Assembly: GCF_013408685.1 (NCBI RefSeq)
Contig: NZ_JACBZY010000001.1
Location: 930,001 to 994,000, forward strand
Direction of reading: 5' to 3'
DNA from: Schumannella luteola
Lineage (GTDB): Bacteria; Actinomycetota; Actinomycetes; Actinomycetales; Microbacteriaceae
Length of the DNA: 64,000 nucleotides
The position numbers were made by a program, and so were the translations under genes. Positions 41,526-60,548 of the stretch are shown one piece after another. The notes below the pieces were generated by a model. That model was not told the DNA's origin. It saw only the letters and a program-made list of their open reading frames with translations, and searched no databases. Every line of letters begins with the position of its first letter. The first letter of the stretch is position 1.

Positions 41526-41536
41526 AGGTAACCCCC

Positions 41537-41586: not shown

Positions 41587-41697
41587 TTTGTCAGAAGCAA
41601 ACGATTTCCATGCCGTGGTCCTGACCAGACCAAACCGTTCAGCATCGGGCGTCGAAGAACCGCAGCAGGCAGCACAGCATCGGGGAGCAGCACCATC

Positions 41698-44600
41698 GTG
41701 TCGACGTGGGGGGAGCCCGCCGACGCGCAGCGACAGAAGTCGCCGCGTCGCGGAGCACGCATTCGCATCTTCAAGAACGAGAGCAACTGGGGCGAGCCCG
41801 GTGCCTCGTACTTCTCGCGATTCGCCCGCATACTCGCTCTGACCCTCGCGGTCGTCGTCGGCGCTCTCAGCGGCGCGGTGCTCCCCACCGCCATCGCGAA
41901 CGCCGTCGTCGTCGAATGGGGCACCAACGGCGGCACCGAGCCGAACTACCAGGCCACCGTCAACGGCGACTTCGTCAATGCCGGCAACGGCGTGCTCGCC
42001 TGCACCTCGATGTACGTGTCGAACGCCGGCAGCTGTGCGAATCTCCACGCGGCCACGGCGCCGTCGACGACGAACCCCAACGTCAACGACTACGCGAACA
42101 TGATCAACAGCAACACGGTGAACGGGTTCACGACGAACTCCTCGAGCGCGACGCTGACGGTGCCGTCGGGGGCCAAGGTGGTCAAGGCGTTCCTGAACTG
42201 GTCGGCCAACACGGGCGTCTACACCGGTGACACCCGTCCGCTGTGCGGCGCCTACGACACGACCAGCTCCCAGGCGACGCTGCCCAGCGGGTCGGCGACG
42301 GGATACCAGACCCGGGCGGTGCAGTTCCGAGTCGGTTCGGGCGCGATCGCCGCGTACGCGCCCGACAGCCTGCGCGAGGATGCGGCGAGCCAGGCCACGG
42401 CGCGCTACTACAGCGCATCGGCTGACGTGACGACCGCGTTCGCGAGCGTCGCCACCGGATCGTCGGTCACCGTCTCGGCCGGCAACCTCTGGGCTCCTCA
42501 GGGCGCCGGATGCTACGCGGGCTGGTCGGTCACCGTCGTCTACGACTACGGCACGTACATCGTCGGCAACGCCAACTCGGTGCCGCACCGCGTCATCTAC
42601 TACGAAGGCCACGTACGCGAGGGTCGCAACGACGCGGCGCTCAGCGTCGACTTCAACGGATTCACCGCCGTCGACAAGGGCACCCGCGCCGGCTTCACGC
42701 TGTACGAGGGCGACCGCGGCATCACCGGAGACGCCGCGTCGTACGCGCGGGCGGGTTCGACGACGTTCACCGAGATCCCGAACAGTGCCGCGCTCGACAG
42801 CGCCGGCAACAACGCCGGCGTCAACGGCAACATCGGCATCGGCCGAGCGAGCGGCTCGGTTCGCTACACGAACACGTCGGACACGAGCGCCTTCACGAAC
42901 CAGAGCGTGGATGTCGCGACCGCCAACCTGACGAACGTCGTGGCCGGCGACTCGAAGGTGACCCTGCGACTCGGCACGAGCGGCGACTCCTACCTGCTGA
43001 CGAACGCGGTGCTGTCGGTCCCGACGGCGGGACTGCAGGTCACCAAGAGCTACAACGGCACCGACGACATCCAGTACCGCACCGCCGGCGAGAAGGCCAC
43101 CTTCACGATCACGATCCAGAACACCGGCGCGGGCATCCTGCAGAACATCAAGGTCGTCGACGACCAGGCCGACTGTTCGCGCACGCTGACCGGGATCACC
43201 CTCGCCCCGCTCGCGACGACGACCTACACGTGCACCGCGACGAACAACACCACAGCGGGCTATACGAGCACCGCGACAGCCACGGCCACCACGGTGGTCG
43301 GCGGCTACCTGGCGGAGGGCGCCGACTCGACCACGGTCGCGAAGAGCAGCATCGCGCTGGCGAAGTCGAGCGCGCTCGCCGCCGGCGCCACCGGCAAGGC
43401 GGGCGACTCGGTCAACTACACGCTGACCGCGACCAACGACGGCTCGGGCCCGCTCACGGGCGTCACGATCACCGATCCGCTGATCACGAACCTCGTCTAC
43501 GGCACCTGGAGCTCGGGAACCAGCGGCACCCTCAACCAGGGCGGTTCCGTCACCGCGACCGGCACCTACGTGCTCAAGCAGTCGGATGTCGACGCCGGAT
43601 CGATCGCGAACACCGCGACCACGACGGGCACCGACGCCGACGGCGGCGTCAAGCCGACCGCGACCGCGGCGCGCACCCAGCCCGTCGCCGCGACCCCGGC
43701 GCTGACGCTGAACAAGACGGGCGCGCTCGCGAGCGGCGCCACCGGCAAGGTCGGCGACACCATCAACTACAGCTTCGTGGTGACCAATACAGGCAACGTG
43801 ACGCTGAAGAGCGTCGGCGTGACCGATCCGCTCTCCGGTCTGTCGGCCATCACCTTCGGCACCTGGAGCTCGGGCACGACCGGCCAGCTCAACCCGGGCG
43901 GTTCGGTCACCGGCACCGCGACCTACACGATCAAGCAGGCCGACGTCGACCGCGGCAACGTGCCGAACACGGCCACCGCGACCGGCACCCCGCCGACCGG
44001 CTCGGCTGTCACGGCCACCTCGTCGCGCACCGTGACGGTGGCGACCGCGGCCCCCGCGATCACGACCACGAAGGCCGCCGCCTACACGACCGGCTCCGGC
44101 GCGGTCGGCAGCGTCGTCACCTACACCTTCACGGCCCGCAACTCGGGCAACGTGACCCTCACCGGCGTCGCGATCACCGACCCGCACGCGGGCCTCTCGG
44201 CACTGACCTACAGCTGGCCGGGCACCGCGGGCACGCTCGCGCCCGGCGCGACCGTCACCGCCACGGCGACCTACACGGTGACGCAGGCGGATGTGGATGC
44301 CGGCACGATCACCAACACCGCGACCGCCGCCGGCACCTCGCCCACCGGCACCGCCGTGAACGCGACCGCGAACGCGACGATCGCCCCGCAGACATCCGCC
44401 CCGAACCTGGTCTTCACCAAGTCGGGCACCGCGAACGGCCAGGCCGCCGGCTCGGTCGTCACCTACACCTTCACGCTGCGCAACACGGGCAACGTGACCC
44501 TGACCGGCGTCGGCGTGACCGACCCGCTCGCCGGCCTCAGCGCGATCACCTACAGCGCCTGGCCGAGCGGCACCGCCGGCCGGCTCAACGTCGGCGACCA

Positions 44601-47600
44601 GGTCACCGGCACCGCGACCTACACGCTGAAGCAGAGCGACGTGGATGCGGGCTCGGTCGCGAACACCTCGACCGCCGTCGCCACCCCGCCGACCGGCGCC
44701 GCGATCAACCGCACCTCGAGCGCGACCGTGCCGGTCGCGCCGACGGGCACCATCGCGGTCACCAAGTCGGGCGCGTACCTCAGCGGCACCGGCGCCGTCG
44801 GCAGCGTCATCCGCTGGAGCATCACCTTCCGCAACACCGGCAACGTGACGCTCTCGGGCGTCACCCTGACCGACTCGCTCGCGGGTCTCGGCACCCCGGT
44901 CATCACCTGGCCGGGCACCGCGGGCACGCTCGCGCCGGGCGCGACCGCCACGGCGACCGCCGACTACACGGTGAAGCAGAGCGACGTCGACACGGGCAGT
45001 GTCGCGAACACCGCCAGCGTCACTGCGCGCACCCCCGGCGGCGGCGCCGTGAGCGGCGCCTCGCCCACCGCGACCGTGCAGACGAGCGCGGCGAACCCGG
45101 GCGTCACGATCGCGAAGACCGGCCAGATCGCCGGCGGCGCGGCCGGCAACGCAGGCAACGTGATCACCTACACCTTCACGCTGCGCAACTCGGGCAACGT
45201 GACCCTCACGAACGTCGGCGTGACCGACCCGCTCGCGGGCCTCGGCACGATCACCTACACCTGGCCCACCTCCACGGCCGGCACGCTCGCGCCCGGCGCG
45301 ACCGCGACCGGCACCGCCAGCTACACGATCAAGCAGAGCGACGTCGACACCGGCAACGTCAAGAACACCGCGACCGTCACTGGCACGACCCCGACGGGCG
45401 GCACCGCGACGAACACGAGCGGCCAGGTGACGACGAACACGGCCGCCGCCGCCCCGGCGATCTCGACCACCAAGGCGGGCGCCCTCGTCGCCGGCTCGAC
45501 CGGCGTCGCCGGTGACACCGTGCGCTGGACGATCACCCTCGTCAACACCGGCAACGTCACGCTGACCGGCGTCAGCGTCGCCGACTCGCTCGCCGGCATC
45601 GGCGCCCTCACCTACACGGGGCTCGGCGCGAACTCCTCGCTCGCGCCGGGCGCCACAGCCACGGCCGTCGGCACCTCGACCCTGTCGCAGGCGGATGTCG
45701 ACTCCGGCTCGGTCATCAACACCGCGACCGGCTCGGGCAGCTCGCCCACCGCGGTGCGCGTCAGCAGCGCCAGCACGGCCACCGTCGTGGTCGCGCCGAC
45801 CGGCAGCCTGTCGATCACCAAGACCCCGAGCGTGACGAGCGGCGCGACCGCCGGCAGCACGATCACGTACACCTTCCTGGTGCGCAACACCGGCAACGTG
45901 ACCGTCAGCACGGCGACGATCACCGACCCGCTGGCGGGCCTCAGCGCCATCACCTACAGCGGCTCGCGCACCCTCGCGCCGGGCGCGACCGTCACCGGCA
46001 CCGCGACCTACACGGTCAAGCAGAGCGACGTGGACGCGGGCTCGATCAAGAACACCGCCGGCGTCAGCGGCACGACGCCGAAGGGGGCCACCGTGACGGC
46101 GTCGTCGGGACAGGTCACCGTCACGACGGTCGCCCCGGCTCCCGCGGTGACCGTCACGAAGACGGCCGCGTACACGAGCGGCTCCGGCGCCGTGAACAGC
46201 GTCATCACCTACACCTTCGTCGCGCGCAACACCGGCAACGTGACCCTGACCGGCGTCGCCGTGAGCGACCCGCACGCGGGACTCTCGACGATCACCTACG
46301 GCACCTGGCCGAGCGGCACCACGGGAACTCTCGCGCCGAGCACGCAGGTCACCGCCACCGCGACCTACACGGTCACGCAGGCCGACGTCGACGCCGGCTC
46401 GGTGCGCAACACCGCCGCCGTCGCGGGCACTCCGCCGACCGGCGCCGCCGTGACCGGCAGCTCGGGCGAGGTCAGCATCGCGACCGCCACCGCGGCTCCC
46501 GCGCTCACCTTCACCAAGACCGGATCGGCCGCGGGCGCGACCGCCGGCTCGACCGTCACCTACACCTTCACCCTGCGCAACAGCGGCAACGTCACGCTCA
46601 ACGGCGTGAGCGCGAGCGACCCGCTCTCGGGCCTGAGCTCCATCACCTACGGCGCCTGGCCGAGCGGCACCGCGAACACGCTGCGCGTCGGCGACCAGGT
46701 CACCGGCACCGCGACCTACACGGTCAAGCAGAGCGACGTGGATGCGGGCTCGATCTCGAACACCGCGACCGCGACCGGCACCCCGCCGACCGGCGCGGCG
46801 ATCACCCGCACCTCGAGCGCGACCGTGCCGCTCGCCGGCGTCGGCGTGCTCAACGTCACGAAGGCCGGTGCGCTCGCACCCGGCGCGACCGGCAAGGTCG
46901 GCGACACCATCACCTGGACGATCGTCGCCAAGAACACCGGCAACGTGACCCTCACCAACGTGGCCGTCACCGACTCCCTCTCGGGCCTCTCGGCGCTGAG
47001 CTACACCTGGCCGACCGGGCAGACCGCGGGCACCCTCGCCCCGAACCAGCAGGTCACCGCGACGGCGACGTACGCAGTCACGCAGGCCGACGTGGATGCG
47101 GGCACCGTCACGAACACCGCGACGACCACCGGGCGCAACCCCTCCGGCGGAACCGTCACCGGCGCGTCGTCGCCGGCGAGCGTGACGCTCGCGGCCTCCG
47201 CCCCGGCGATCACCGTGCAGAAGTCGGGCGCGATCGCGGGCGGCGCGGCCGGCAACGCGGGCAACGTCATCAACTACACCTTCACGATCACCAACACCGG
47301 CAACGTCACGCTGCGCGGCGTCGCGGTCACCGACCCGCTGAGCGGACTGTCGGCCCCGATCTACACCTGGCCGACGTCGACCGCCGGGGTGCTCGCACCC
47401 GGCGCGGTCGCGACCGCCACCGCGACCTACACGATCAAGCAGAGCGACGTCGACAACGGCAGCGTCGCGAACACCGCCAGCGTCACCGGCACCCCGCCGA
47501 CCGGCGCGGCTGTCACGAACACCGGCAGCACGGTCACGAACACCGCGACCGCCGCGCCTGGCGTCGTGGTCACCAAGACCGGCCAGCTCGCGACCGGCGC

Positions 47601-50600
47601 CACCGGCAAGGCCGGCGACACCGTCAACTGGTCGTTCACCGTGCGCAACTCGGGCAACGTCACGCTCACCGGCGTCGTCATCAACGACCCGCTCGTCGAC
47701 ATCTCCGCGCGCACCTACACCTGGCCGTCCGGCCAGACCGCGGGCACCCTCGCCCCGGGCCAGACCGCCACGGCGACCGCGACCTACGTGCTCAAGCAGA
47801 GCGACGTCAACGGCGGCTCGGTCGTCAACACCGCGACCGGCGTGGGCACCACGCCGAAGTCGGGGCCGGCGACGAGCCAGCAGGTGTCGGCGACCGTGAC
47901 CATCCAGAGCTCCGCCTCGCTGAGCCTCACCAAGACCCCCAGCGTCGCCAGCGGCGCCAAGGTCGGCGACACGATCACGTACACCTTCGTGGCCCGCAAC
48001 ACCGGCAACGTCACGCTCACCGCGGTCGCGATCACCGACCCGCACGTCGGCCTCTCGACCATCAGCTACGGCCCCTGGCCCGGCGGCACCGCCAACGTGC
48101 TCGCGCCCGCCGAGCAGGTCACCGCGACCGCGACCTACACGGTCACGCAGGATGACGTGAACTCCGGCCGGGTCAACAACAGCGCCAGCGTCAGCGGCAC
48201 CACCCCGACCGGCGGCACCGTCTCGTCGACGGCCGCGGTCAGCGTGCCCGCCACCCCGGCGGCGCCCGCGATCGACCTGACCAAGACGGCCGCGATCACG
48301 ACCGGCAACGGCGGCGTCAACTCGGTCATCACCTACACGTTCAAGCTCACCAACTCGGGCAACGTCACCGTCACCGGGGCGCGCATCGCCGACCCGCTTC
48401 CGCAGCTCTCCCCGCTGACCTACCAGTGGCCGAACGCGCCCCCGCAGGGAACCCTCAACCCCGGTGACAGCGTGACCGCGACGGCCACCTACACGATCAC
48501 CCAGGCTGACGTCGACCGCGGCTTCGTGCAGAACCGCGCCACCGGCTTCGCCACCCCGAAGATCACCGGCGGCACCGAGTTCTCGACCCAGTCGCCGCAG
48601 GTCACCACCCCGACCGCCGCATCCGCCCCGCGCCTCGCGCTCACGAAGACCGGCTCAGCATCCGGCACCACGGCGGGCTCCACGGTCACCTACAGCTTCA
48701 CCCTCCGCAACACCGGCAACGTGACCCTCACGGGCGTCGGCATCAGCGACCCCCTGCTCGGCGCCAACGGCGTCACCCTCAGCAACTGGTCGGGCGGAGT
48801 CGCCGGCACCCTGGCGCCGAACGGCACCGTCTCGGGAACCGGCACCTACACCGTCAAGCAGAGTGACGTGGATGCGGGCTCGATCGCGAACACCGCGACC
48901 GCGACCGGCACCCCGCCGACCGGCGCCGCCGTCACCACGCAGGGCAGCGCGACCGTGCCGCTCGCCGCGACCGGCGCGCTCAGCCTCAGCAAGTCGGCTT
49001 CGCCCAGCGGCAACGTCAAGCTCGGCGACGTCGTCACCTACACCTTCGTCGCGACGAACACCGGCAACGTGACCCTCAGCGGCGTCACGATCAGCGACCC
49101 GCTCGCCGGCCTCAGCCGCGTCGAGTACGGCACGCAGAGCCGCACCCTCGCTCCCGGCGGAACCCTGACCGGCACCGCGACCTACACGGTGACCCAGGCG
49201 GATGTGAACCGCGGCTCGATCGCGAACACCGCGTCGGTCACCGGGCGCACGCCCGCGGGCCAGAACCCGACCGCCTCCTCGCCGACCGTCACGACCTCGA
49301 CCGTCGCGGCCGCGCCGAGCATCACGACCACGAAGACGGCGGCCGTCTCCGACGGCGGCGTCGTCGGCGACCGCGTGACCTACACGATCACTGCGCGGAA
49401 CAGCGGCAACGTCTCGCTCACCGGCGTCGTGATCAGCGACCCGATGTTCACGCCCGCCCAGATCAACTACGGCGCCTGGACCTCGGGGACCACCGGTCTG
49501 CTGCAGCCCGGGCAGACCGTCACCGCGACGGCCGTGCGCACGGTCACGCAGGCCGACGTCGACAACGGCGGCATCACGAACACCGCGACCAGCACCGGCA
49601 CTCCGCCGACGGGCGCGAACGTGTCGAACTCGGCGACCATCACGACGCCGCTCGCGACCCGGGCCCCGAGCATCCAGCTCGCCCAGACCGGCGCGCTCGC
49701 GCCCGGTTCCACCGGCAAGGCGAACGACACCGTCACCTGGTCGTTCACGATCACCAACAACGGCAACACGACGCTCACCGGAGTGACGCTGTCGCCGACG
49801 CTGGCCGGCATCACCGCGCCCGTCTTCGGCACCTGGCCGAGCGGCACCGCCGGCACCCTCGCCCCCGGGCAGAGCGTGACCGCCACGGCGACCTCGCAGC
49901 TCACCCAGGCGCAGGTGGATGCGCGCAGCGTCACCGACCCGGCGACCACCGCGGGCACCCCGCCGACCGGGGCGAACGTCACGGCCAGCGCGCCGGCGAC
50001 CGTCGCTCTGACGCCGGCCTCGACGATCTCGATCGTCAAGACCGGAACGGCTCCCGCCAACGCGGCCGTCGGCGACAAGATCACCTACGGCTTCACGCTG
50101 CGCAACACCGGCGCGACGACGCTGACCGGCGTCGCCGTCTCCGACCCGCGCCTCGGCTCGACCCCGATCACCTACACCGGACTCGGCACGGGCGCCTCGC
50201 TCGCCCCCGGCGCCAGCGCCACGGCGTCGGCGAGCTACACGATCACCCAGGCCGACATCGACGCGGGCACCGTGACCAACACGGCGACGGTGAACTCCGT
50301 CAACCCGCAGGGCACCGCCGTCACCGGCACCTCGAACTCGGTCACGGTGGCCACCGGCCAGCAGGCCGGCGCCGTCTCGATCGCGAAGAGCGCGAGCCCG
50401 GCGAGCGGCGTCGCCCGCGGCGGCACGATCACCTACACCTTCACGGTCCGGAACACCGGAAACGTGACGCTGACCGGCGTCGCCGTCACCGACCCGATGT
50501 TCCCGGGCGCGAGCGACATCAGCTACGGCACCTGGCCGGGCGGCACCACCGGCACCCTCGCGCCGGGCGCGACCGTCACCGCGACCGCCAGCCACGTGGT

Positions 50601-53600
50601 CAGCCAGGCCGACTTCGACCTCGGCCGCGTCGACAACCAGGCGACCGTCACCGGCAAGACCCCGACGAACATCACGGTCAGCGGCCAGTCCGCGACGGTC
50701 AGCACCACGACCGCCGCCGCGAACCCGTCGATCTCGTTCACCAAGTCGGGCACGCCGACGACCGGACTCAAGCTGAACGACACCGTCGTGTGGAGCTTCG
50801 CCTTCAGCAACACGGGCGACGTGACCCTCAGCGGCATCGCCATCGCCGACCAGCTCGCCGTGACCGGCCTGACCTACACGGGCCTCGGCGCGAACAGCTC
50901 GCTCGCGCCCGGCGCCTCGGGCACCGCGACCGCGAACTACAAGGTCACGCAGGCGGATGTCGACGCCGGCTCGATCGTCAACTCGGCGACCATCACCGCG
51001 AACCCCGCCCGCGGCGCGCAGCTCACGCGCACCGCCACGGCCACCGTCGCGACCTCCGCGCAGCCGAGCATCGCGCTGACGAAGACCGCGGCCATCGACG
51101 GCAACAAGGCCGGCAACGTCGGTGACACGATCACCTACACGTTCACGGCCTCGAACACCGGCAACCAGACCATCACCGGCGTCGTCATCGACGACCCGCT
51201 GGCCCGCCTCGGCACGATCACCTACGGCACCTGGCCGACCGTCACCGCCGGAACGCTGCCGCCCAACACCAGCGTCGTCGCCACGGCGAAGTACACGATC
51301 GCGCAGAGCGACGTCGACGGGCAGTCGATCGTCAACACCGCGACCGTCACCGGCACGGCCTCCGGCACTCCGGTCACGGCGACCGCCGGCCCGGTGACCA
51401 CCGCCGTGGTCGCGGCCGCTCCCGCCCTGACGGCGACCAAGGCCGCGAACGTCACCTCGGGCGCGAAGGTGGGCGACGTCATCCGCTACCGCGTCGTGCT
51501 GGCCAACACCGGCAACCAGACGCTGCACGGCGTCACCGCCGTCGACGCGCACGCCGGACTCGGCGCGATCACCTACACCTGGCCGGGCCAGGCCGGCGTG
51601 CTCGCCCCCGGCGAGAGCGCCACCGCCCGCGCGAACTACACGGTCACCCAGGCGGATGTCGACGCCGGCTCGATCGCGAACACCGCGCACGGCGAGAGCC
51701 TCAACCCGGCCAACACCGCGGTGCGCTCGAACGACTCGGCGCTGACGATCACGACCGACCCGCAGCGCGCGACGATCGCGATCACCGACTCGGGCGCGCT
51801 GCCGGCCGGATCGGCGGGCAAGGCCGACGACATCGTCACCTGGACCTACGTCGTCACCAACACCGGCAACGTCACGCTCTCGAGCGTCGGCGTCACCGAG
51901 TCGCAGACGAACGCGACCGCCCCGCAGTACACCTGGCCGGGCGCCACCGGCGTGCTCGCGCCGGGCCAGAGCGCTCAGGTGACCACGACCTACAAGCTGC
52001 TGCAGGCGGATGTCGACCGCGGCTCGGTCACGAGCAACGTCGCGACCGTCGGCACCCCGCAGACCGGCGCCAAGCCGACCGCGAACGCGACCGCCTCGGT
52101 CACCGTCGCGCCGAACCCGGCCTTCACGGTCATCAAGCGCGCCGAGTTCCGGAACGGCGGCGTCGGCAATGTCGGCGACGTCATCCGCTACTCGCTGGAT
52201 GTCGCCAACACCGGCAACGTCACGCTCAGCAACGCGGCACTCACCGATCACCTGCCCGGTCTCGGCGAGCAGTTCCCGACCTGGCCCGACCCCGCGAAGC
52301 CCGGCGTCATCCCGCCTGGCAAGGGCGCCACCGGCTACGCCGACTACACGGTCACCCAGGCCGACGTCGACCGCGGCTCGATCACGAACACCGCGGGCGT
52401 CTCCTTCTCGACGCCGGCCGGCGCGACGGTGCAGAAGCCGTCGAACACGGTCGTCACCCCGCTCGCGCAGTCGCGCCCCCTGCTCTCGATCACCGAGACC
52501 GGCGTGCCCGACAGCCCGGCGAACGTCGGCAAGAACGTGACCTGGACGGTGACCGTCACCAACAACGGCAACGTCACCGTGAACAACGTCGTCGTCACCG
52601 ACCCGGCGCTGCAGAACCCGGTGCTGAACTGGGGTGCGAACCCGGCCGGCTCGCTCGCGCCCGGCACCAGCGTCACGCTGACCGGTACGACCGTCATCAC
52701 CCAGGCGGATGTCGACGCCGGCCAGGCGACGAACTCCTCGAGCGCGCAGGGCACCTCGGCCCGTGACGGCTCGGCCGTGGGGCCGGTGACGGCGAACGCC
52801 GCCGCCCCGACCGCGACCGCCGGACCGTCGATCGGCATCCAGAAGACCGCCACCAAGGCCGCCGGCTTCACCGACAAGGCCGGCGACACGGTGAACCTCA
52901 CCTACCTGGTCACCAACAACGGCAACCAGACGCTCAGCGGCGTCGCCATCGCCGACACCCTCGCCGACACCACGATCACCTTCGGCGCCTGGCCCGGCGG
53001 CACCGCCGGCACCCTGGCGCCGGGCGCGACGGTGAGCGCCACGTCGACCCACAAGGTCACGCAGGCCGAGGTGGATGCGGGACGCAGCGAGTCGCCGGCC
53101 ACCACGACCGGCACGAGCACGCGCGGCACGAAGGTCACCTCGACCAGCACCGCCGGCGTCGACATCGTGTCCAAGCCGGGGATGACCCTGGTCAAGAAGG
53201 GCACCGTCGGCGGATCCGGCGGCGTGAACGCCCCGATCAGCTACGGCTTCACGATCACCAACACGGGCAACGTCTCGCTGTCGCTGATCTCGCTCGTCGA
53301 CTCGCTCCCGGGCGTCAGCGCCCCGTCGTTCGTCTGGCCCGACAAGACCGAGCCGGGCGTGCTCCAGCCCGGCGAGGTCGCCACCGCGACGTCGTCGTAC
53401 TCGATCACGCAGGCGGATGTCGACGCCGGGCAGGTGACCAACACCGCCACCGCGAGCGGCAAGCCGCCGGTCGGCGACACGATCTTCGTGAGCTCCGGCC
53501 AGGTCATCACGACGGTCGCGCCGGCCGCGCCGAAGATCACCGTCACCCAGACCGCGACGCCGACCACGGGCGTGAAGGTCGGCGACCAGGTCACCTTCAC

Positions 53601-56600
53601 CGTCACCGGCAAGAACGACGGCAACGTGACGCTCGGCAGCGTCACGCTGGCCGACTCCCTGGCCGGACTCGGCACCCCCGTTCCCACCTGGCCCGGCCAG
53701 CAGGGCACGCTCGGCGTCGGGCAGACCGTCACCTGGCAGATCCCGTACACGGTGACCCAGGCCGACGTCGACGCGGGAGCGATCCAGAACATCGCGACGG
53801 TCAGCGGCACCTCCCCGAAGGGCGTCACGGTCTCGGGCGACGCCCCCGCGACCGTCACCCCGACCGTGGCCGGGCCGAAGATCGGCGTGACCGATCAGGG
53901 CGCCCTCGCGCCCGGCGCCACCGGCGTCGCGGGCGACAAGGTCACCTGGTCGTACGTGATCACCAACACCGGCGACGTGACCCTCACCGGCGTCACCGCA
54001 TCCGAGTCGCAGACGAACGCCACCGCCGTCAGCTACGGCGCCTGGCCCGGCGCGACCGGAACGCTGGCCCCCGGTCAGAGCGTCACCGCGACCACCACCT
54101 CCACGCTGACCCAGGCCGACGTGAACCGCGGCACCGTCACGAGCGGCGTCTCGACGCGCGGCACCGGACCGGCGCCCTCGTCGACCGTCGTCACCGCGAC
54201 GGCGCCCGCGACCGTGAGCATCCAGGCCCGCCCGGCGTTCACCAACCTCAAGAGCGCCCGCTTCCTGAACGGCGGCACCGGGCAGGTCGGCGACACGATC
54301 GAGTACAAGCTCACCGTCACCAACACCGGCAACGTCACGCTCTACCGTGCGCAGCTGATCGACCCGCTGCCCGGCCTCGGCACACAGAACCCGACCTGGC
54401 CCGACCCTGCTCAGCCGGGCGTCATCCAGCCGGGGCAGACCGCGACCGGCGTCGCGAACTACGTCGTGACCCAGGCGGATGTCGATGCCGGCTCGAAGTC
54501 GAACATCGCCACGGCGCGGTTCTACTTCACGCCGACCGGCAGCGCGAGCGACCCGCACCTCGACGTGCCCTCGAACGAGGTCGTCACGCCGCTCGCCCAG
54601 TCGCGCCCGTCGCTCTCGATCAACGAGACCGGCTCGGTGCCGCAGCCCGGCACCGTCGGCAAGACCGTCACCTGGACCATCACGGTCACCAACAACGGCA
54701 ACGTGACGGTGAACAACGTCGCCCTGACCGCGGCCAGCACGGCCGGCCTCGCGAACGTGACCACCACCTGGGGCGGCAACCCGGCCGGCACCCTGGCTCC
54801 GGGCACCTCGCTCACCGTGACCGGCACGACCGTGCTCACCCAGGCCGATGTGGATGCGGGCGCGACCTCGCGCACCAGCCAGGCGAGCGGCACGTCCGCC
54901 CGCGACGGCAGCGCCGTCGGCCCGGTGAACGCCGGCGCCACCGTGCCGACGGTCGGCAGCGGCCCCGGTATCGCCGTCACCAAGTCGGCCGCGCTCGCCC
55001 CGGGCGCCACCGGCAAGGCCGACGACCTGGTCGACTTCACCTACACGCTGACCAACAACGGCAACGTGACGCTCACCCAGTCGGCGCTCGCCGATGCGCT
55101 GGGCCTGACCGGCCCGATCGCCTACGACTGGAAGGGCAACCCGGCGGGCACCGTCCCGGTGGGCACCACGATCACCGCGACCGGCACCTACCGCCTCACC
55201 CAGGCGGATGTCGACCGCGGCTCGATCTCGAGCGCCGTCACGGGAACCGGCACGGCGCCGAACGGCACCAAGGTCACCGACAGCGCCACCGCCGGGGTGA
55301 CCATCGCGGCCGCGCCGAAGCTCGTCGTCACGAAGGACGGCACCGTGCGCGGCGGGGGAGTCGGCGCCGTGAACGGCGTGATCGACTACGCCTTCACGAT
55401 CAAGAACGACGGCAACGTCACCCTCACGCTGGTCGACCTCGTCGACTCGCTGGGCGGCGTCAGCACCCCGGTCATCACCTGGCCGAGCTCCGGCCCGGCG
55501 GGCACCCTCGTGCCCGGCGCGACGGCCACCGCGACCGCGAACTACACGATCACCCAGAACGACATCGACAAGGGCAGCGTCGCGAACGTCGCCACCTCGA
55601 CCGCGAAGCCGCCTGTCGGCGACAAGATCAGCCAGTCGTCGAACACCTCGAACGTGACCGTCGGCGGCGCGACCACCGCGCCGAAGATCACCGTGACCGA
55701 GACGCCCACGCCCGCCAGCGGCCTCCGCGTCGGCGACGCCGTGAGCTTCGCGATCACGATCACCAACAGCGGCACCATCACGGTCACCGACACGACCCTC
55801 GCCACGACGCTGCCCGGCATGACCGTGTCGGCGATCTCGTGGCCGGGCGCCGCCGGTGTGCTCGCCCCCGGACAGGTCGCCCGCGCGACCGGCACCTACA
55901 TCGTGACGCAGAGCGACGTGGATGCGGGCAGCATCAGCGACACCGCCTCGAGCACCGCCGTGGGCGTGCGCGGCGGCAACGCACCGCCGGCCTCCGCCTC
56001 TGCGACCGCGACGACCGTCGCGGCCGGCCCGGCGATCACCGCGACCGATGAGGGACGTCTGCAGCCGGGCGCCACCGGCGTCGCCGGCGACGATGTCCAG
56101 TGGCTCTACCGCGCGACGAACTCGGGCAACACCACGCTCACCGCCGTCACCTTCGCCGAGGGACTGAGCGGTTCGGCCGCCCCGATCGTGACCGAGTGGC
56201 CCGACCCGTCGAAGCCCGGCGTGCTGCTGCCCGGCCAGACGGCCATCGCGGTCGGCGACTACACGCTCAAGCAGAGCGACGTCGACGCCGGCACGATCCG
56301 CAGCAACCTGACGGTGACCGGAACCTCGGCATCCTCCGGCTCGACGAAGGTGACCGACGCCGCCACGGCGAACGTGCCGATCGAGGCGCGCCGCGCCCTC
56401 AGCGCGGTCAAGAGCGGCTCGCTCGTCAGCGGCCTCGGCGCCGTCGGCGACACCGTGCGCTACACGGTCGACATCACCAACACCGGCAACGTCACCCTCT
56501 ACCAGGGCACCCTGCTCGACCCCCTGCCGGGTCTGCAGACGCCGACGATCACCTGGCCGACGGCCGAGGAGGGCACCGTGCCTCCGGGCGAGGTCGTGCA

Positions 56601-59600
56601 CGGCGAAGCCGACTACGCGCTGACCCAGGCGGATGTCGACCGCGGCTACATCGACAACACCGCCCACGTCGCCGCCTGGAGCACGAAGACCGGCCAGGCG
56701 GACGCGAACAAGGCCGAGGCCGCGACCAACACGGTGCGCGTCACGACCGAGCAGGCCGTGCCGCAGCTGACCGTCACCAAGGCGGCGAGCGTCGGCGGAA
56801 CCGGCAAGGTCGGCGACACGATCACGTACACGATCACGACCAAGAACACCGGCAACGTGACCGTCAAGGGCCTCGCCGTCACCGACCCGCTGCCGCGCCT
56901 CAGCGGCGTGACGACCACCGGCCTCGCCGCCGACGGCTCGCTCGCGCCCGGCGCGACCGCGACGGGCAAGGCCACCTACGTGCTCGACCAGGCCGACGTC
57001 GACACCGGCAGCGTCACCAACCGCGCCGCCGCGAACGGCACCTCGGCCCGCGACAGCAGCCCGGTCGGCGCGCAGAGCAACCAGCTGGTCACCCCGGTGT
57101 TCGCCGGCATGCCCGCCCTCAGCGTCACCGACGCCGGCGCGCTCAACGCCCCCGACCAGAACAAGGCCGGCGGCGCCGCCACCTGGACCTACGTGGTGAA
57201 GAACACCGGCGACGTCACCCTCACCGGTGTCGCGGTCGCCGACACGCTGCCGATCGGCGCTCCGACCTACGCGTGGACCGGCCCGGCCGGCGTGCTCGCG
57301 CCGGGAGCCTCGGTCACCGTCACCGCGCCCTACTCGCTCACCCAGGGCGACGTGGATGCGGGCGGCCCGATCAGCCAGGTCACCGCCACCGGCACGCCGA
57401 AGGTCGGCGCGAACGCGACCGCCCAGGCCACCGCGACCATCCCGGTCACGGCGAGCCCGACGATCACCGTCGCCCAGACCGCGCAGCTCGACAAGCCCGG
57501 CCAGAACGGCCTCGGCGGCGAGATCGACTACGGCTTCACGATCACCAACACCGGCAACACGACCCTCACCGGCGTGACGCTCGGCAACACGGTCGTGGGC
57601 CTCACGGTGCCGAGCTACACCTGGCCCGACCCGGCGAACCCGGGCGTGCTCAAGCCGGGCCAGTCGGCCACCGCGACCGCCACGCACCAGATCTCGCAGG
57701 CGGATGTGGATGCCGGCAAGGTCGATAACCTCACCACCGTCACCGGGCGCAACCCGGCCGGCGGCACCGTGACCAATCAGTCGGCGCCGACCAGCATCCC
57801 GACCGCGGCCCCCGCCCCGGCGCTCAGCCTGGTCAAGGGCGGTGCGCTGCAGAGCGGCACCGGCAACGCCGGCAGCGTCGTGCGCTTCACCTTCACGCTG
57901 AAGAACACCGGCAACGTGACCCTCAGTGGCCTCGCGGTGCAGGAGCAGCTGCAGGGCGCCGGGGTTCCGACGATGACCTTCCCGACCGGCCAGCCCGTGC
58001 TGGCCCCGGGCGCCTCGGCCACCGGGTACAGCGACTACACGCTGACCCAGGCCGACGTCGACAAGGGCAGCGTCGCGAACACGGCGACCGCGTCCGGCAC
58101 GGCTGCGCCGAACGGCGCCCCGGTGTCGACCACGTCGAACACCTTCACCTTCGACACCGCCACCTCGCGGCCGCGCATCTCGACCACGCAGACCGGCGTG
58201 TTCGAGTCGGGTCAGACCGGCAAGCTCGGCGACACGGTCGACTACACCTTCGTGATCACCAACACCGGCAACACCTCGCTGAGCGGCGTCGACGTCACCA
58301 ACACCGTGGCCGGCCTGCGCGACGCGCAGTACACCTGGCCGGCCGGGCAGACCGCGGGCACCCTCGCGCCGAACCAGTCGGTCACGATCACGGCGAAGCA
58401 CGACGTGACGCAGGCGGATGTCGACGCGGGCGTGATCCGCAACGTCGCCACCGGCAGCGGATCCGACCCGAAGGGCAGCAAGGTCAGCGACGCGGCCCCC
58501 GAGGTCGTGCTGCCGCTGGCGACCGCGACGACGGAGCTCGACCTCACCAAGGTCGGAACCCCGCGTCAGGATGCGCGCGTCGGCGACACGATCGACTACG
58601 CCTTCACGCTCACCAACAACGGCACGCAGACGCTGCACGACGCGACCATCGTCGACGGACTGCCCGGCGTCAGCACGCTGGCCTACGGCACCTGGCCGAG
58701 CGGCACCGCGGGCGTGCTGCGCCCCGGCGACGAGGTCACCGCGTCGGCGACCTACGTGGTCACCCAGGCCGACGTCGACCGCGGCAGTGTGCGCAACACG
58801 GCCTCGGCATCCGCCCTCGACCCGTCGAACACGCGCCTCAGCGCCACCTCGCCGGTGTCGGTCGTCAACACGCCCCCGGCGGCGCCGAAGATCGGCATCG
58901 ACAAGAAGGCGGCGCTCGCGCCCGGCTCGACCGGTCGCGCCGGCGACACCGTGAACTACACGTTCACCGTCACCAACACCGGCAACGTCACGCTCGAGAA
59001 CGTGACCGTCGGCGACCCGCAGCCCGACCTCGGCAACTGGAAGTACACCTGGCCGGGAACGCCGGGCGTGCTCAAGCCGGGCGAGGTCGCCACGATCACC
59101 GCCGAGCACGCGCTCACCCAGCCCGAGGTCGACCGCGGCGTGCTCGACACGGTCGCCGAGACCGGCGGCGAGGGGATGGGCGGAGGTGCTCCGGTGAGCG
59201 CCACTGACGCCGCCCCGGTGGTCATCGCGGCCGGCCCCGCGCTGACGCTGACGAAGACGGCCACGCCGCGCAGCGCCTCGCCGACCTTCGGCACCGTGAT
59301 CGACTACACCTTCGTCGTCGAGAACACCGGCAACGTCACGCTCGAGAGCGTCGCCGTCACCGACCCGCTGCTCGCCGGAACCGAGATCAGCTACGGCTGG
59401 CCCGGCGCCAACGGCCGCCTGCTGCCGGGTGAGACGGTCACCGGCACCGCGAGCTACACGGTCACCCAGGCCGACGTGGATGCCGGAGCGATCGCGAACA
59501 CCGCGACCGCCACCGGAACCGCGCCCGACGGCACGACGCAGCCCACCGCATCCGGCTCGGCGACCGTCGCCGTGCCGCACGGCTCGGCTGTGAAGCTCAC

Positions 59601-60096
59601 GCAGAGCGTGCGCCTCGCCGACGGCGCCGCCGGGTTCGCGGGCGACACGCTGATCTACACCTACGTGATCACCAACACCGGCTCGACCACGCTGCACGAC
59701 ATCGTGCTCACCGACCCGAAGAAGGGCCTCGGCGCCTTCAGCTACGGTCCGTGGCCGGGCGGCGTCGCGGGCGTGCTCGCCCCCGGCGAGAGCGTGACCG
59801 TCACGGCGCCGTACGTCATCCAGCCGGGTGACGAGGGCACGCTCGTGCCGGGCACCTCGACGGTGACCGCGGTCGGACCCGACCCCGACGAGCAGGTCAC
59901 GTCGGCGTCGAGCGCCGACATCCAGCTGCCGCAGCGTCCGGGTGTTCCCGGCATCCCCGGCCTCCCCGGCAACGGAGGCCTCGCCCACACCGGCATCGAC
60001 CCGACCTACCCGGGCCTTCTCGCGCTGCTTCTCCTACTCTGGGGTGGAGCGCTGGTCGGCTGGAACGTCCGGCGCCGACGTAAGGAGAACGCATGA
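41698..60096 (+). CDS. Giant secreted DUF11-repeat surface protein with LAxTG cell-wall sorting signal
   Basis: About 6,132 residues (roughly 0.6 MDa) from GTG 41698, which has GGGGAG upstream; ATG 41581 is an alternative adding 39 residues. Order of parts: long polar N-region; hydrophobic signal core ILALTLAVVVGALSGAVL ending at AIANA; a head of about 400 residues (WGTNGGTEPNYQATVNGD onward, reminiscent of DUF3344-type surface domains); a first divergent DUF11 repeat; 46 regular repeats of ~118 residues; a last degenerate repeat; Pro/Gly linker; LAHTG, hydrophobic helix and RRRRK tail. Each repeat carries NTGNVTL and Q-x-DVDxG boxes of the DUF11 family. Cysteines occur only in the head and first repeat. 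It probably forms a long wall-anchored fibre for adhesion or aggregation, attached by a class E-type sortase that is not in this window. Confidence 0.9.
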   Translation: MSTWGEPADAQRQKSPRRGARIRIFKNESNWGEPGASYFSRFARILALTLAVVVGALSGAVLPTAIANAVVVEWGTNGGTEPNYQATVNGDFVNAGNGVLACTSMYVSNAGSCANLHAATAPSTTNPNVNDYANMINSNTVNGFTTNSSSATLTVPSGAKVVKAFLNWSANTGVYTGDTRPLCGAYDTTSSQATLPSGSATGYQTRAVQFRVGSGAIAAYAPDSLREDAASQATARYYSASADVTTAFASVATGSSVTVSAGNLWAPQGAGCYAGWSVTVVYDYGTYIVGNANSVPHRVIYYEGHVREGRNDAALSVDFNGFTAVDKGTRAGFTLYEGDRGITGDAASYARAGSTTFTEIPNSAALDSAGNNAGVNGNIGIGRASGSVRYTNTSDTSAFTNQSVDVATANLTNVVAGDSKVTLRLGTSGDSYLLTNAVLSVPTAGLQVTKSYNGTDDIQYRTAGEKATFTITIQNTGAGILQNIKVVDDQADCSRTLTGITLAPLATTTYTCTATNNTTAGYTSTATATATTVVGGYLAEGADSTTVAKSSIALAKSSALAAGATGKAGDSVNYTLTATNDGSGPLTGVTITDPLITNLVYGTWSSGTSGTLNQGGSVTATGTYVLKQSDVDAGSIANTATTTGTDADGGVKPTATAARTQPVAATPALTLNKTGALASGATGKVGDTINYSFVVTNTGNVTLKSVGVTDPLSGLSAITFGTWSSGTTGQLNPGGSVTGTATYTIKQADVDRGNVPNTATATGTPPTGSAVTATSSRTVTVATAAPAITTTKAAAYTTGSGAVGSVVTYTFTARNSGNVTLTGVAITDPHAGLSALTYSWPGTAGTLAPGATVTATATYTVTQADVDAGTITNTATAAGTSPTGTAVNATANATIAPQTSAPNLVFTKSGTANGQAAGSVVTYTFTLRNTGNVTLTGVGVTDPLAGLSAITYSAWPSGTAGRLNVGDQVTGTATYTLKQSDVDAGSVANTSTAVATPPTGAAINRTSSATVPVAPTGTIAVTKSGAYLSGTGAVGSVIRWSITFRNTGNVTLSGVTLTDSLAGLGTPVITWPGTAGTLAPGATATATADYTVKQSDVDTGSVANTASVTARTPGGGAVSGASPTATVQTSAANPGVTIAKTGQIAGGAAGNAGNVITYTFTLRNSGNVTLTNVGVTDPLAGLGTITYTWPTSTAGTLAPGATATGTASYTIKQSDVDTGNVKNTATVTGTTPTGGTATNTSGQVTTNTAAAAPAISTTKAGALVAGSTGVAGDTVRWTITLVNTGNVTLTGVSVADSLAGIGALTYTGLGANSSLAPGATATAVGTSTLSQADVDSGSVINTATGSGSSPTAVRVSSASTATVVVAPTGSLSITKTPSVTSGATAGSTITYTFLVRNTGNVTVSTATITDPLAGLSAITYSGSRTLAPGATVTGTATYTVKQSDVDAGSIKNTAGVSGTTPKGATVTASSGQVTVTTVAPAPAVTVTKTAAYTSGSGAVNSVITYTFVARNTGNVTLTGVAVSDPHAGLSTITYGTWPSGTTGTLAPSTQVTATATYTVTQADVDAGSVRNTAAVAGTPPTGAAVTGSSGEVSIATATAAPALTFTKTGSAAGATAGSTVTYTFTLRNSGNVTLNGVSASDPLSGLSSITYGAWPSGTANTLRVGDQVTGTATYTVKQSDVDAGSISNTATATGTPPTGAAITRTSSATVPLAGVGVLNVTKAGALAPGATGKVGDTITWTIVAKNTGNVTLTNVAVTDSLSGLSALSYTWPTGQTAGTLAPNQQVTATATYAVTQADVDAGTVTNTATTTGRNPSGGTVTGASSPASVTLAASAPAITVQKSGAIAGGAAGNAGNVINYTFTITNTGNVTLRGVAVTDPLSGLSAPIYTWPTSTAGVLAPGAVATATATYTIKQSDVDNGSVANTASVTGTPPTGAAVTNTGSTVTNTATAAPGVVVTKTGQLATGATGKAGDTVNWSFTVRNSGNVTLTGVVINDPLVDISARTYTWPSGQTAGTLAPGQTATATATYVLKQSDVNGGSVVNTATGVGTTPKSGPATSQQVSATVTIQSSASLSLTKTPSVASGAKVGDTITYTFVARNTGNVTLTAVAITDPHVGLSTISYGPWPGGTANVLAPAEQVTATATYTVTQDDVNSGRVNNSASVSGTTPTGGTVSSTAAVSVPATPAAPAIDLTKTAAITTGNGGVNSVITYTFKLTNSGNVTVTGARIADPLPQLSPLTYQWPNAPPQGTLNPGDSVTATATYTITQADVDRGFVQNRATGFATPKITGGTEFSTQSPQVTTPTAASAPRLALTKTGSASGTTAGSTVTYSFTLRNTGNVTLTGVGISDPLLGANGVTLSNWSGGVAGTLAPNGTVSGTGTYTVKQSDVDAGSIANTATATGTPPTGAAVTTQGSATVPLAATGALSLSKSASPSGNVKLGDVVTYTFVATNTGNVTLSGVTISDPLAGLSRVEYGTQSRTLAPGGTLTGTATYTVTQADVNRGSIANTASVTGRTPAGQNPTASSPTVTTSTVAAAPSITTTKTAAVSDGGVVGDRVTYTITARNSGNVSLTGVVISDPMFTPAQINYGAWTSGTTGLLQPGQTVTATAVRTVTQADVDNGGITNTATSTGTPPTGANVSNSATITTPLATRAPSIQLAQTGALAPGSTGKANDTVTWSFTITNNGNTTLTGVTLSPTLAGITAPVFGTWPSGTAGTLAPGQSVTATATSQLTQAQVDARSVTDPATTAGTPPTGANVTASAPATVALTPASTISIVKTGTAPANAAVGDKITYGFTLRNTGATTLTGVAVSDPRLGSTPITYTGLGTGASLAPGASATASASYTITQADIDAGTVTNTATVNSVNPQGTAVTGTSNSVTVATGQQAGAVSIAKSASPASGVARGGTITYTFTVRNTGNVTLTGVAVTDPMFPGASDISYGTWPGGTTGTLAPGATVTATASHVVSQADFDLGRVDNQATVTGKTPTNITVSGQSATVSTTTAAANPSISFTKSGTPTTGLKLNDTVVWSFAFSNTGDVTLSGIAIADQLAVTGLTYTGLGANSSLAPGASGTATANYKVTQADVDAGSIVNSATITANPARGAQLTRTATATVATSAQPSIALTKTAAIDGNKAGNVGDTITYTFTASNTGNQTITGVVIDDPLARLGTITYGTWPTVTAGTLPPNTSVVATAKYTIAQSDVDGQSIVNTATVTGTASGTPVTATAGPVTTAVVAAAPALTATKAANVTSGAKVGDVIRYRVVLANTGNQTLHGVTAVDAHAGLGAITYTWPGQAGVLAPGESATARANYTVTQADVDAGSIANTAHGESLNPANTAVRSNDSALTITTDPQRATIAITDSGALPAGSAGKADDIVTWTYVVTNTGNVTLSSVGVTESQTNATAPQYTWPGATGVLAPGQSAQVTTTYKLLQADVDRGSVTSNVATVGTPQTGAKPTANATASVTVAPNPAFTVIKRAEFRNGGVGNVGDVIRYSLDVANTGNVTLSNAALTDHLPGLGEQFPTWPDPAKPGVIPPGKGATGYADYTVTQADVDRGSITNTAGVSFSTPAGATVQKPSNTVVTPLAQSRPLLSITETGVPDSPANVGKNVTWTVTVTNNGNVTVNNVVVTDPALQNPVLNWGANPAGSLAPGTSVTLTGTTVITQADVDAGQATNSSSAQGTSARDGSAVGPVTANAAAPTATAGPSIGIQKTATKAAGFTDKAGDTVNLTYLVTNNGNQTLSGVAIADTLADTTITFGAWPGGTAGTLAPGATVSATSTHKVTQAEVDAGRSESPATTTGTSTRGTKVTSTSTAGVDIVSKPGMTLVKKGTVGGSGGVNAPISYGFTITNTGNVSLSLISLVDSLPGVSAPSFVWPDKTEPGVLQPGEVATATSSYSITQADVDAGQVTNTATASGKPPVGDTIFVSSGQVITTVAPAAPKITVTQTATPTTGVKVGDQVTFTVTGKNDGNVTLGSVTLADSLAGLGTPVPTWPGQQGTLGVGQTVTWQIPYTVTQADVDAGAIQNIATVSGTSPKGVTVSGDAPATVTPTVAGPKIGVTDQGALAPGATGVAGDKVTWSYVITNTGDVTLTGVTASESQTNATAVSYGAWPGATGTLAPGQSVTATTTSTLTQADVNRGTVTSGVSTRGTGPAPSSTVVTATAPATVSIQARPAFTNLKSARFLNGGTGQVGDTIEYKLTVTNTGNVTLYRAQLIDPLPGLGTQNPTWPDPAQPGVIQPGQTATGVANYVVTQADVDAGSKSNIATARFYFTPTGSASDPHLDVPSNEVVTPLAQSRPSLSINETGSVPQPGTVGKTVTWTITVTNNGNVTVNNVALTAASTAGLANVTTTWGGNPAGTLAPGTSLTVTGTTVLTQADVDAGATSRTSQASGTSARDGSAVGPVNAGATVPTVGSGPGIAVTKSAALAPGATGKADDLVDFTYTLTNNGNVTLTQSALADALGLTGPIAYDWKGNPAGTVPVGTTITATGTYRLTQADVDRGSISSAVTGTGTAPNGTKVTDSATAGVTIAAAPKLVVTKDGTVRGGGVGAVNGVIDYAFTIKNDGNVTLTLVDLVDSLGGVSTPVITWPSSGPAGTLVPGATATATANYTITQNDIDKGSVANVATSTAKPPVGDKISQSSNTSNVTVGGATTAPKITVTETPTPASGLRVGDAVSFAITITNSGTITVTDTTLATTLPGMTVSAISWPGAAGVLAPGQVARATGTYIVTQSDVDAGSISDTASSTAVGVRGGNAPPASASATATTVAAGPAITATDEGRLQPGATGVAGDDVQWLYRATNSGNTTLTAVTFAEGLSGSAAPIVTEWPDPSKPGVLLPGQTAIAVGDYTLKQSDVDAGTIRSNLTVTGTSASSGSTKVTDAATANVPIEARRALSAVKSGSLVSGLGAVGDTVRYTVDITNTGNVTLYQGTLLDPLPGLQTPTITWPTAEEGTVPPGEVVHGEADYALTQADVDRGYIDNTAHVAAWSTKTGQADANKAEAATNTVRVTTEQAVPQLTVTKAASVGGTGKVGDTITYTITTKNTGNVTVKGLAVTDPLPRLSGVTTTGLAADGSLAPGATATGKATYVLDQADVDTGSVTNRAAANGTSARDSSPVGAQSNQLVTPVFAGMPALSVTDAGALNAPDQNKAGGAATWTYVVKNTGDVTLTGVAVADTLPIGAPTYAWTGPAGVLAPGASVTVTAPYSLTQGDVDAGGPISQVTATGTPKVGANATAQATATIPVTASPTITVAQTAQLDKPGQNGLGGEIDYGFTITNTGNTTLTGVTLGNTVVGLTVPSYTWPDPANPGVLKPGQSATATATHQISQADVDAGKVDNLTTVTGRNPAGGTVTNQSAPTSIPTAAPAPALSLVKGGALQSGTGNAGSVVRFTFTLKNTGNVTLSGLAVQEQLQGAGVPTMTFPTGQPVLAPGASATGYSDYTLTQADVDKGSVANTATASGTAAPNGAPVSTTSNTFTFDTATSRPRISTTQTGVFESGQTGKLGDTVDYTFVITNTGNTSLSGVDVTNTVAGLRDAQYTWPAGQTAGTLAPNQSVTITAKHDVTQADVDAGVIRNVATGSGSDPKGSKVSDAAPEVVLPLATATTELDLTKVGTPRQDARVGDTIDYAFTLTNNGTQTLHDATIVDGLPGVSTLAYGTWPSGTAGVLRPGDEVTASATYVVTQADVDRGSVRNTASASALDPSNTRLSATSPVSVVNTPPAAPKIGIDKKAALAPGSTGRAGDTVNYTFTVTNTGNVTLENVTVGDPQPDLGNWKYTWPGTPGVLKPGEVATITAEHALTQPEVDRGVLDTVAETGGEGMGGGAPVSATDAAPVVIAAGPALTLTKTATPRSASPTFGTVIDYTFVVENTGNVTLESVAVTDPLLAGTEISYGWPGANGRLLPGETVTGTASYTVTQADVDAGAIANTATATGTAPDGTTQPTASGSATVAVPHGSAVKLTQSVRLADGAAGFAGDTLIYTYVITNTGSTTLHDIVLTDPKKGLGAFSYGPWPGGVAGVLAPGESVTVTAPYVIQPGDEGTLVPGTSTVTAVGPDPDEQVTSASSADIQLPQRPGVPGIPGLPGNGGLAHTGIDPTYPGLLALLLLLWGGALVGWNVRRRRKENA
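43033..59940 (+). repeat. 48 tandem DUF11-type repeats, with a six-unit higher-order period
   Basis: I count a divergent first unit starting at 43033, 46 regular units from 43351 to 59589 (mean 117.7 codons), and a degenerate last unit from 59590. Consensus parts are TKTG, GDT(I/V)xYTF, NTGNVTLTGV, DPLxGLS, YxWPxGTxGTLAPG, TATATYT, QADVDAGSI, NTATxxGTPPTG. Units six apart resemble each other more than neighbours do, for example units 4, 10 and 16, and units 25, 31 and 37. Block starts measured at 44059, 46147 and 48271, and at 51775, 53881, 56035 and 58177, give spacings of 2.09-2.15 kb. Confidence 0.88.
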
Positions 60097-60548
60097 AGTC
60101 CACCGCCCTTCGCACTCTGACCGCACTCGCCGGCGTCGCCTTCGTCGCCGGAGCGCTGGCCGGATGCACGGGAGGTGACGACTCCACCGCGAAGAAGTCG
60201 GCATCGCCGAAGCCGTCGACGGCGCCGTCGCAGGTGACCGAGGTCAGCGACGCGCCGGGCACGGGCGAGGGCTTCGAGGGAGCGCGCAACGACGTCGAGG
60301 TGAAGAAGTGCGAGCCGGCCGACGGCGGCTGGGCGATCTCGGGCACCGTGACCAACTCGAGCGAGGCGACCGCGAACTACCGCATCTACGTCTCGCTGCT
60401 CGACAAGGACAGCGCGACCCTCGGCCTCAAGCAGGTCAACTCGGATGGCGTCGAGGCCGGCAAGAGCGCCGACTGGAACGCCGACATCGCCGTCGACGGC
60501 AAGAACCTGCAGTGCGTGCTGCGGGTGGAGCGCTACCCCGCCTCCTGA
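60093..60548 (+). CDS. Small FxLYD-like lipoprotein coupled to the giant gene
   Basis: 151 residues. The ATG overlaps the stop codon of the giant gene (ATGA), so it is translated by re-initiation in the same operon. A signal peptide ends in lipobox LAGC (Cys25), followed by a Ser/Pro/Lys-rich tether and a small beta domain with KKCEPADGGWAISGTVTNSS and YRIYVSLLDKDSATLG, typical of FxLYD domains. Two cysteines in the domain (CEPAD and LQCVLRV) may pair. It could be a membrane-side partner in presenting, folding or anchoring the giant protein (inference from coupling). Confidence 0.85.
   Translation: MKSTALRTLTALAGVAFVAGALAGCTGGDDSTAKKSASPKPSTAPSQVTEVSDAPGTGEGFEGARNDVEVKKCEPADGGWAISGTVTNSSEATANYRIYVSLLDKDSATLGLKQVNSDGVEAGKSADWNADIAVDGKNLQCVLRVERYPAS

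Follow-up and report, generated by a model that had tools for sequence, protein, structure and literature searches.

A giant DUF7507 surface protein of Schumannella luteola with 48 repeats and a patterned absence of the predicted isopeptide triad

Introduction

The closest described relatives of the protein studied here are the adhesins covered by a survey (PMC12617251) in which DUF11 (PF01345) is renamed CLIPPER and DUF7507 (PF24346) CLIPPER_2. According to the available text of that source, the solved structure of a DUF11 domain contains an intramolecular Lys-Asp-Asn isopeptide bond and the same bond is predicted for DUF7507. Bonded domains are described there as withstanding proteases and heat, CnaB-type bonds as blocking extension, and CnaA-type domains are proposed to act as shock absorbers; CnaA-like bonded domains are reported to unfold in part under tension (PMC12617251, citing Echelman 2016), and glutamate serves in CnaB folds. 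Isopeptide stalk domains are known; the literature found offers no account of why the bond is absent from some of them. Among giants, the Mobiluncus mulieris TIE adhesin contains 7,651 residues and 51 Ig-like domains (PMC10619420), giant extracellular proteins of 3,000-8,000 residues are described in Apilactobacillus kunkeei (PMC12863079), and huge DUF11 proteins are mentioned only in general terms in the accessible part of PMC11573180. In our partial coverage of the literature, with few subscription journals, no earlier description of DUF7507/FxLYD giants or of a positional pattern of unbonded domains was found.

The gene analysed here lies in a stretch of 64,000 nucleotides (the window, genome positions 930001-994000) of a host genome that consists of one contig of 3.75 Mb. 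Judged from its sequence, the product is of a kind already known, a sortase-E-anchored, fibrillar-adhesin-like protein whose stalk is made of CLIPPER_2 (DUF7507) domains, and carries a new conserved design feature; a sequence-only reading of the window had observed the object rightly and interpreted it incompletely. The domain families are the same as in the CLIPPER/CLIPPER_2 adhesins, as is the tandem stalk flanked by signal peptide and head on one side and by the sorting signal on the other, and the lysine at profile position 8 matches the DUF7507 example of the survey (Lys72 of domain 65-169); unlike here, the available text of the survey describes no bonded/unbonded positional pattern, fixed repeat number, Tyr33 subtype or FxLYD neighbour (PMC12617251). 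With the M. mulieris adhesin, the protein has in common that it is an actinobacterial giant with about 50 crosslinkable Ig-like domains and an LPxTG-type anchor, and that adhesin is also two-zoned, its ester domains lying mostly in the C-terminal half. It combines a thioester domain with ester and isopeptide domains, whereas neither the thioester nor the ester motif occurs here and the repeats are DUF7507; furthermore, 21 isopeptide domains are inserted in it relative to M. curtisii, whereas the 48 repeats reported below are common to four genera (PMC10619420, as far as available). The A. kunkeei proteins are alike in size, belong to a different lineage and are likened by description only (PMC12863079).

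Results and Discussion

The giant gene and its parts

Frame reading from 41698 to 60096 (+) revealed a single uninterrupted gene, as the sequence-only reading had claimed; it has 18,399 nt (6,132 codons and a stop), no internal stop, a sole stop at the end and a GC3 of 0.96 (Table 1). An assembly artefact is unlikely because nine relatives have open frames of 6,009-6,171 aa. An in-frame ATG upstream, at 41581, would give a product of 6,171 aa, 39 residues longer than from the GTG at 41698. The GTG is a plausible start since the frame of the congener L032 opens at its equivalent and that of L033 further upstream. Counted from the GTG, cysteines are confined to the head (four) and the first repeat (two), as had been noticed, and the ATG start adds one. 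The predicted LAHTG signal was found at 59980-59994, followed by a hydrophobic stretch and the basic tail, and the sequence architecture supports the proposed elongated wall-anchored stalk with a distinct head. That anatomy was rightly described; the reading had missed that several genera have the same number of repeats and that a lipoprotein-like FxLYD gene overlaps the end of the giant gene.

Table 1. Positions in the window of the giant gene, its segments and the adjoining FxLYD gene
Feature	Position	Strand	Remark
Gene of the giant wall-anchored fibre (alternative start at ATG 41581, upstream)	41698..60096	+	
N-terminal region including the signal peptide, whose hydrophobic core reads LALTLAVVVGALSGAVLP	41698..41904	+	by eye
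Head domain, four invariant cysteines, without Pfam/NCBIfam match at E 0.01	41905..43017	+	
48 DUF7507/DUF11 (CLIPPER_2/CLIPPER) repeats, mean spacing 117.4 aa	43018..59901	+	
Repeats 2-19, Lys13-Asp50-Asn95 triad in 18/18, putative locked distal zone	43330..49635	+	
Repeats 20-48, triad in 13/29, patterned wall-proximal zone	49651..59901	+	
Repeat 26 (DES), of the Tyr33 subtype, with which the every-third lattice 26/29/32/35/38/41 begins	51754..52089	+	
Repeat 41 (DDS), of the Tyr33 subtype, with which the every-third lattice ends	57103..57429	+	
LAHTG sorting signal, hydrophobic helix and RRRRKENA tail	59980..60093	+	by eye
FxLYD-domain lipoprotein-like gene, start overlapping the giant gene's stop (ATGA)	60093..60548	+	

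Two long antisense open frames face the giant gene, at 48655-59988 (-, 3,777 aa) and 41263-48045 (-, 2,260 aa); they are probably shadows of the GC-rich third codon positions and not genes. Just upstream lie a DNA methylase-like gene (39722-40717, -) and a SpoU-type RNA methylase gene (40730-41446, +). The former was matched in 7/27 relative loci searched, many of these stretches ending before its position.

The head domain

The head gave no match to any Pfam or NCBIfam family at E 0.01, thioester Pfam families included, and its comparison with PDB sequences gave one weak match (E 0.27). A structural model built from 8 sequences reached a pLDDT of 65.5 and a pTM of 0.76. Foldseek returned 970 PDB matches at E 10; the 50 listed, which include viral jelly-roll capsids, PNGase-type proteins and a putative hydrolase, have TM-scores not above 0.24, and no fold is assigned to the head. 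The four cysteines are invariant in 8/8 aligned heads, so the disulfide-stabilised head put forward earlier is plausible, as a bond predicted from sequence. The stalk repeats are those of a fibrillar adhesin, and the protein is probably one; adhesion itself is suggested by the architecture only, since the head has neither a family match nor a convincing structural one. The head was found in 22/299 genomes of the family, and its profile matched in 49/297 genomes of the order, many of these matches being weak. One related-head protein in another family of the order (L080/L081, genome G374) has 8,199 aa and 62 repeat matches.

Anchoring and the FxLYD neighbour

Sortase matches (PF04203) occur in the genome at 712413 and 1680385 only, both outside the window, and a class E sortase is recognised by NF033747 (223.7 bits for a cut-off of 160). 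Both statements of the sequence-only reading, that the window holds no sortase gene and that a class E enzyme is encoded elsewhere, are thereby borne out. Kinase-like genes were seen by eye near the class E gene. A second sortase domain is carried by a 624-aa open frame (L002, 253-2127, +), over the Pfam cut-off and under all NCBIfam sortase cut-offs. The LAHTG motif, the hydrophobic helix and the basic tail, recognised by eye, together with the genomic sortase, characterise a sortase-anchored surface protein; this C-terminus is not among the 30 genome matches of the PF00746 anchor model, a search too noisy for listing co-substrates.

The downstream gene encodes an FxLYD domain (28.6 bits, cut-off 23) behind a lipoprotein-like signal seen by eye. 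Among the 17 fetched loci in which the end of the giant gene is complete, 13 have an FxLYD gene there; it is missing from the diverged L047, L049, L050 and L051. It occurs in 26/299 family genomes, 17 of which are among the 22 with the head (both counts were apparently made on the same draw of 299 genomes). In two of the nine headless FxLYD genomes, G290 and G209, which were examined, a DUF7507 stalk with anchor directly precedes the FxLYD gene, and the N-terminal region is different, propeller-like by eye only and without match to the head profile. Because it also follows stalks with a different N-terminal region, the FxLYD gene seems to be associated with the stalk and not with the head, and on the same basis its product would probably help to export, fold or seat the stalk. 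This neighbourhood appears to be new. The two loci concerned (L093 in G290, L094 in G209) might represent a head exchange on a kept stalk module.

Repeats and predicted isopeptide triads

All 48 matches to PF24346 over its curated cut-off in the genome are located in the giant open frame. A count of 48 was likewise obtained with an HMM trained on the repeats of the window itself, in agreement with the earlier estimate of about 48. Repeats 25-27, of which the middle one is without the triad, were modelled from 69 rows (out of 176 listed triples of the window and named relatives) with a pLDDT of 97.7, a pTM of 0.84 and strands as expected, which supports an Ig-like beta sandwich for PF24346 repeats. 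The top Foldseek matches of this model include beta-sandwich proteins such as integrin alpha chains and cadherins, at query TM-scores not above 0.44 in the 50 listed. Sequence comparison with the PDB gave no match for a single repeat at E 1 or for the repeat-triple profile at E 0.01.

In our alignment the triad columns are Lys13 (Pfam position 8), Asp50 and Asn95. The complete triad is present in 31/48 window repeats, and the remaining 17 are without at least one of the three residues. The DUF11 beta-sandwich stalk of the sequence-only reading was right, and both the predicted isopeptide triads and their patterned absence had escaped it. The thioester and ester crosslinks of the TIE protein were also considered as candidates and rejected, TQxx(hydrophobic)W and HxDxxDxxQ being both absent from the protein.

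The number 48

Repeats were counted with the repeat HMM in 21 proteins, namely the window and 20 fetched loci. Exactly 48 were obtained in nine (window, L032, L033, L034, L036, L037, L038, L040 and L042), which belong to four genera. The other counts are 47 (L039), 39 (L041, L043 and L044), 36 (L035), 34 (L049, and also L045, cut there by a frame change), 9 (L047), 3 (L051) and 2 (L050), while L046 (13) and L048 (25) run off their contigs. L043 is Frigoribacterium faeni AS3.2, L044 Frigoribacterium sp. PhB116 and L045 Arenivirga flava. A universal number of 48 is ruled out by these values and by those of a broader set (9, 14, 34, 36, 39, 47, 62 and about 75).

The arrays of the window and of L032, L034, L036, L037 and L038 align 1-48 to 1-48 without gaps in all five pairs tested, and L039 aligns over 1-47. 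The array of L035 is without window repeats 19-30, exactly 12 fewer. In L095, a further congener broken at a contig end, 40 repeats fit best to window repeats 9-48 (0.542 at offset 8; the remaining offsets between 0 and 12 gave 0.396-0.497). In a head tree of 25 rows (L046 and L051 excluded), a clade of 16 rows (support 100/100) has 48-repeat members on either side of its first fork (larger side 92/89), and 48 is therefore probably ancestral in this clade. The recurrence of 48 in nine proteins of four genera, despite silent sites saturated between genera, appears to be new, and in part of the family this giant surface fibre seems to have a fixed length instead of one that drifts.

An ordinary oversized stalk, whose repeat number and pattern would be frozen accidents because diverged repeats hardly recombine, is an improbable account. 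It agrees with the about 41-49% of residues shared by window repeats at lags 1-18, presumably too little for much unequal exchange, and with the variable numbers elsewhere, but it leaves unexplained the phase signatures and lattice sites, described below, that persist between genera after silent-site saturation.

Patterned absence of the triad

In the window the triad is kept in fractions of 0.92, 0.92, 0.42 and 0.33 of the repeats in the successive quarters. Window and L036 have nine triad-less sites in common (of 15 and 10, respectively; P = 3.9e-5, repeats 1 and 48 excluded), and all 10 pairs among the window, L034, L036, L037 and L038 gave P ≤0.03, uncorrected. Periodicity of the absence was assessed in 11 proteins at 6 periods each. 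In the patterned zone a period of 3 was obtained for the window (P 0.0078), L035 (0.0056), L036 (0.0012) and L039 (0.045), and a period of 2 for L041, L043 and L044 (0.0002 each), L043 and L044 being near sisters; these values are uncorrected. L034, L045, G545 and G374 (4/11) gave no significant period. Since repeats from one tree share their history, the P-values overstate independence; the lineage with every-second absence provides a replicate that is in part separate. The data point to a patterned absence, with an every-third lattice in one lineage and roughly every second position in Frigoribacterium, which appears to be new.

The unlocked zone is not universal and would be dispensable for basic function, as L038, L040 and L042 keep the triad in 43/48 repeats and L049 in 34/34.

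The Tyr33 subtype

Triad absence is coupled to a tyrosine in column 33. In 19 protein groups, 79/82 Tyr33 repeats are without the triad, vs 85/603 other repeats; gapped repeats, the near copies L032, L033, L040, L042, L044 and L095, and also L046, L050, L051, L093, L094 and L096 are excluded from this count. No Tyr33 repeat was counted in 7/19 groups, and the single one of G331 carries the triad. Inside the clade Tyr33 is associated with Ser95 (61/83 vs 30/419); outside it no repeat has both (0/239).

Tyr33 occupies repeats 26, 29, 32, 35, 38, 41 and 48 in the window, L032, L033 and L036, the last from another genus. The sites of L035 (20, 23, 26, 29 and 36) are those of the window after addition of 12, as far as retained, and the sites of L095 (18, 21, 24, 27, 30, 33 and 40) those of the window after addition of 8. 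Repeats 35, 41 and 48 are concerned in L034 and L037, and 41 and 48 in L038, L040 and L042; in L039 the sites are partly different (15, 18, 26, 29, 32, 35, 38 and 46). Repeat 41 has Tyr33 and is without the triad in all nine 48-repeat proteins. Outside the subtype stand 10/17 of the window's non-triad repeats, and some non-KDN repeats could still form a bond; repeat 43, which is KEN, might do so because glutamate serves in CnaB folds.

These observations bear on the idea that constraint is merely relaxed near the wall, the bond serving protease and heat resistance, sheltered wall-proximal repeats losing it freely and the regular spacing being left over from old duplications of DNA units of 6, 3 or 2 repeats. 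We take this idea seriously and consider it doubtful. The concentration of triad absence in the C-terminal half speaks in its favour, as does a higher dN/dS in the second half than in the first (about 0.25 vs 0.17 with L032, 0.46-0.50 vs 0.39 with L033). Within the second half, however, the constraint on non-triad repeats is no weaker than that on triad repeats (0.245 vs 0.255 with L032, 0.459 vs 0.502 with L033); the first-half triad repeats (0.169 and 0.390) are more constrained than both classes. The coupling of the absence to one specific change (79/82) and the unlocking of the same sites in different genera also speak against it, an old duplication being still compatible with later selection. 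Tyr33, often with Ser95, marks a coherent, presumably bond-less subtype, as constrained as the triad repeats of the same half, which appears to be new.

A proposed locked distal rod and extensible base

The explanation that we prefer, at a confidence just short of even, is a sortase-E-anchored fibrillar surface protein with a locked distal rod and a force-extensible wall-proximal half. An Ig domain measures about 4 nm, so that 48 domains would span near 0.2 micrometre. Because the triad repeats would form Lys-Asn bonds, the distal half would act as a protease-resistant, hardly extensible rod. Near the wall, the regularly spaced unbonded domains could unfold and refold under load and so cushion the fibre mechanically, the head meanwhile keeping its hold on a surface or on another cell. 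Anatomy, conservation, pattern, coupling and neighbour are read at the sequence level; bond formation, force response, adhesion and the FxLYD role are what we infer from them. Further points count against this explanation: the reported partial unfolding of bonded CnaA-like domains under tension (PMC12617251) blurs the contrast between rod and spring, and the stronger constraint on the first half fits relaxed constraint near the wall.

A bolder version is possible, though we would not call it likely: the stalk would be a mechanical code in which selection sets the domain number (48), the locked positions, a rod at the tip with a calibrated spring at the base, and a dedicated FxLYD partner, the unlocked Tyr33/Ser95 type, seen here only in one clade, taking up one position in three or one in two near the wall. 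Since different genera leave the same sites unlocked, and the spacing of such sites differs between two lineages, the choice between rod and shock absorber becomes testable with single repeats of one gene.

Higher-order periods and silent sites

The similarity between repeats was analysed for periods in 18 proteins, L047 being too short. All ten 48- or 47-repeat proteins have a period of 3 (z 5.1 to 10.9) and a period of 6; a period of 3 was also found in L035 (z 3.9) and L045 (z 3.8), a period of 2 in L041, L043 and L044 (z 9.2-9.7) and L049 (z 4.3), and none in L048. In four proteins the period-3 signature spans columns 25, 31, 1-3, 11, 13, 17, 33 and 21.

This spread over several columns would suit a packing register, in which the special repeats make contact with other fibres in a lateral bundle, with the wall or with the FxLYD protein, and in which the triad was lost as a side effect when these domains were reshaped; regular spacing and the FxLYD gene accompanying the stalk agree with it. 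Columns 31 and 33 and the triad nevertheless look core-facing from the strand spacing and not obviously surface-exposed, and we give such a register little credence.

Periods of 6 and 3 are also what block duplication would give, and the difference of exactly 12 repeats in L035 goes in the same direction, in favour of relaxed constraint. The silent sites, against it, carry no clear signal of block duplication: four-fold-degenerate sites have no clear lag peaks in 7 proteins and no lag-6 excess within the window, and of the 13 lags compared in L043, lag 2 ranks first by a small amount (0.663 vs 0.605-0.660). A recent block duplication was accordingly rejected as the source of period 6 or 2; the periods may have arisen by ancient duplication.

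Between genera, four-fold-site identity is saturated (offsets 0 vs 1: window-L036 0.556 vs 0.553, window-L034 0.536 vs 0.558), and protein identity is highest at matching positions (0.512 and 0.466, respectively). The silent sites of the congeners are unsaturated (0.778 for L032 and 0.651 for L033 at offset 0). Because silent sites are saturated between window and L036 and show no lag-6 excess in the window, the amino-acid pattern, as read from these sequences, is old and maintained.

In Arenivirga flava, about 75 repeats are divided by one frame change into L045 with 34 and L092 with 41; triad and Tyr33 repeats often follow each other in turn in the second part.
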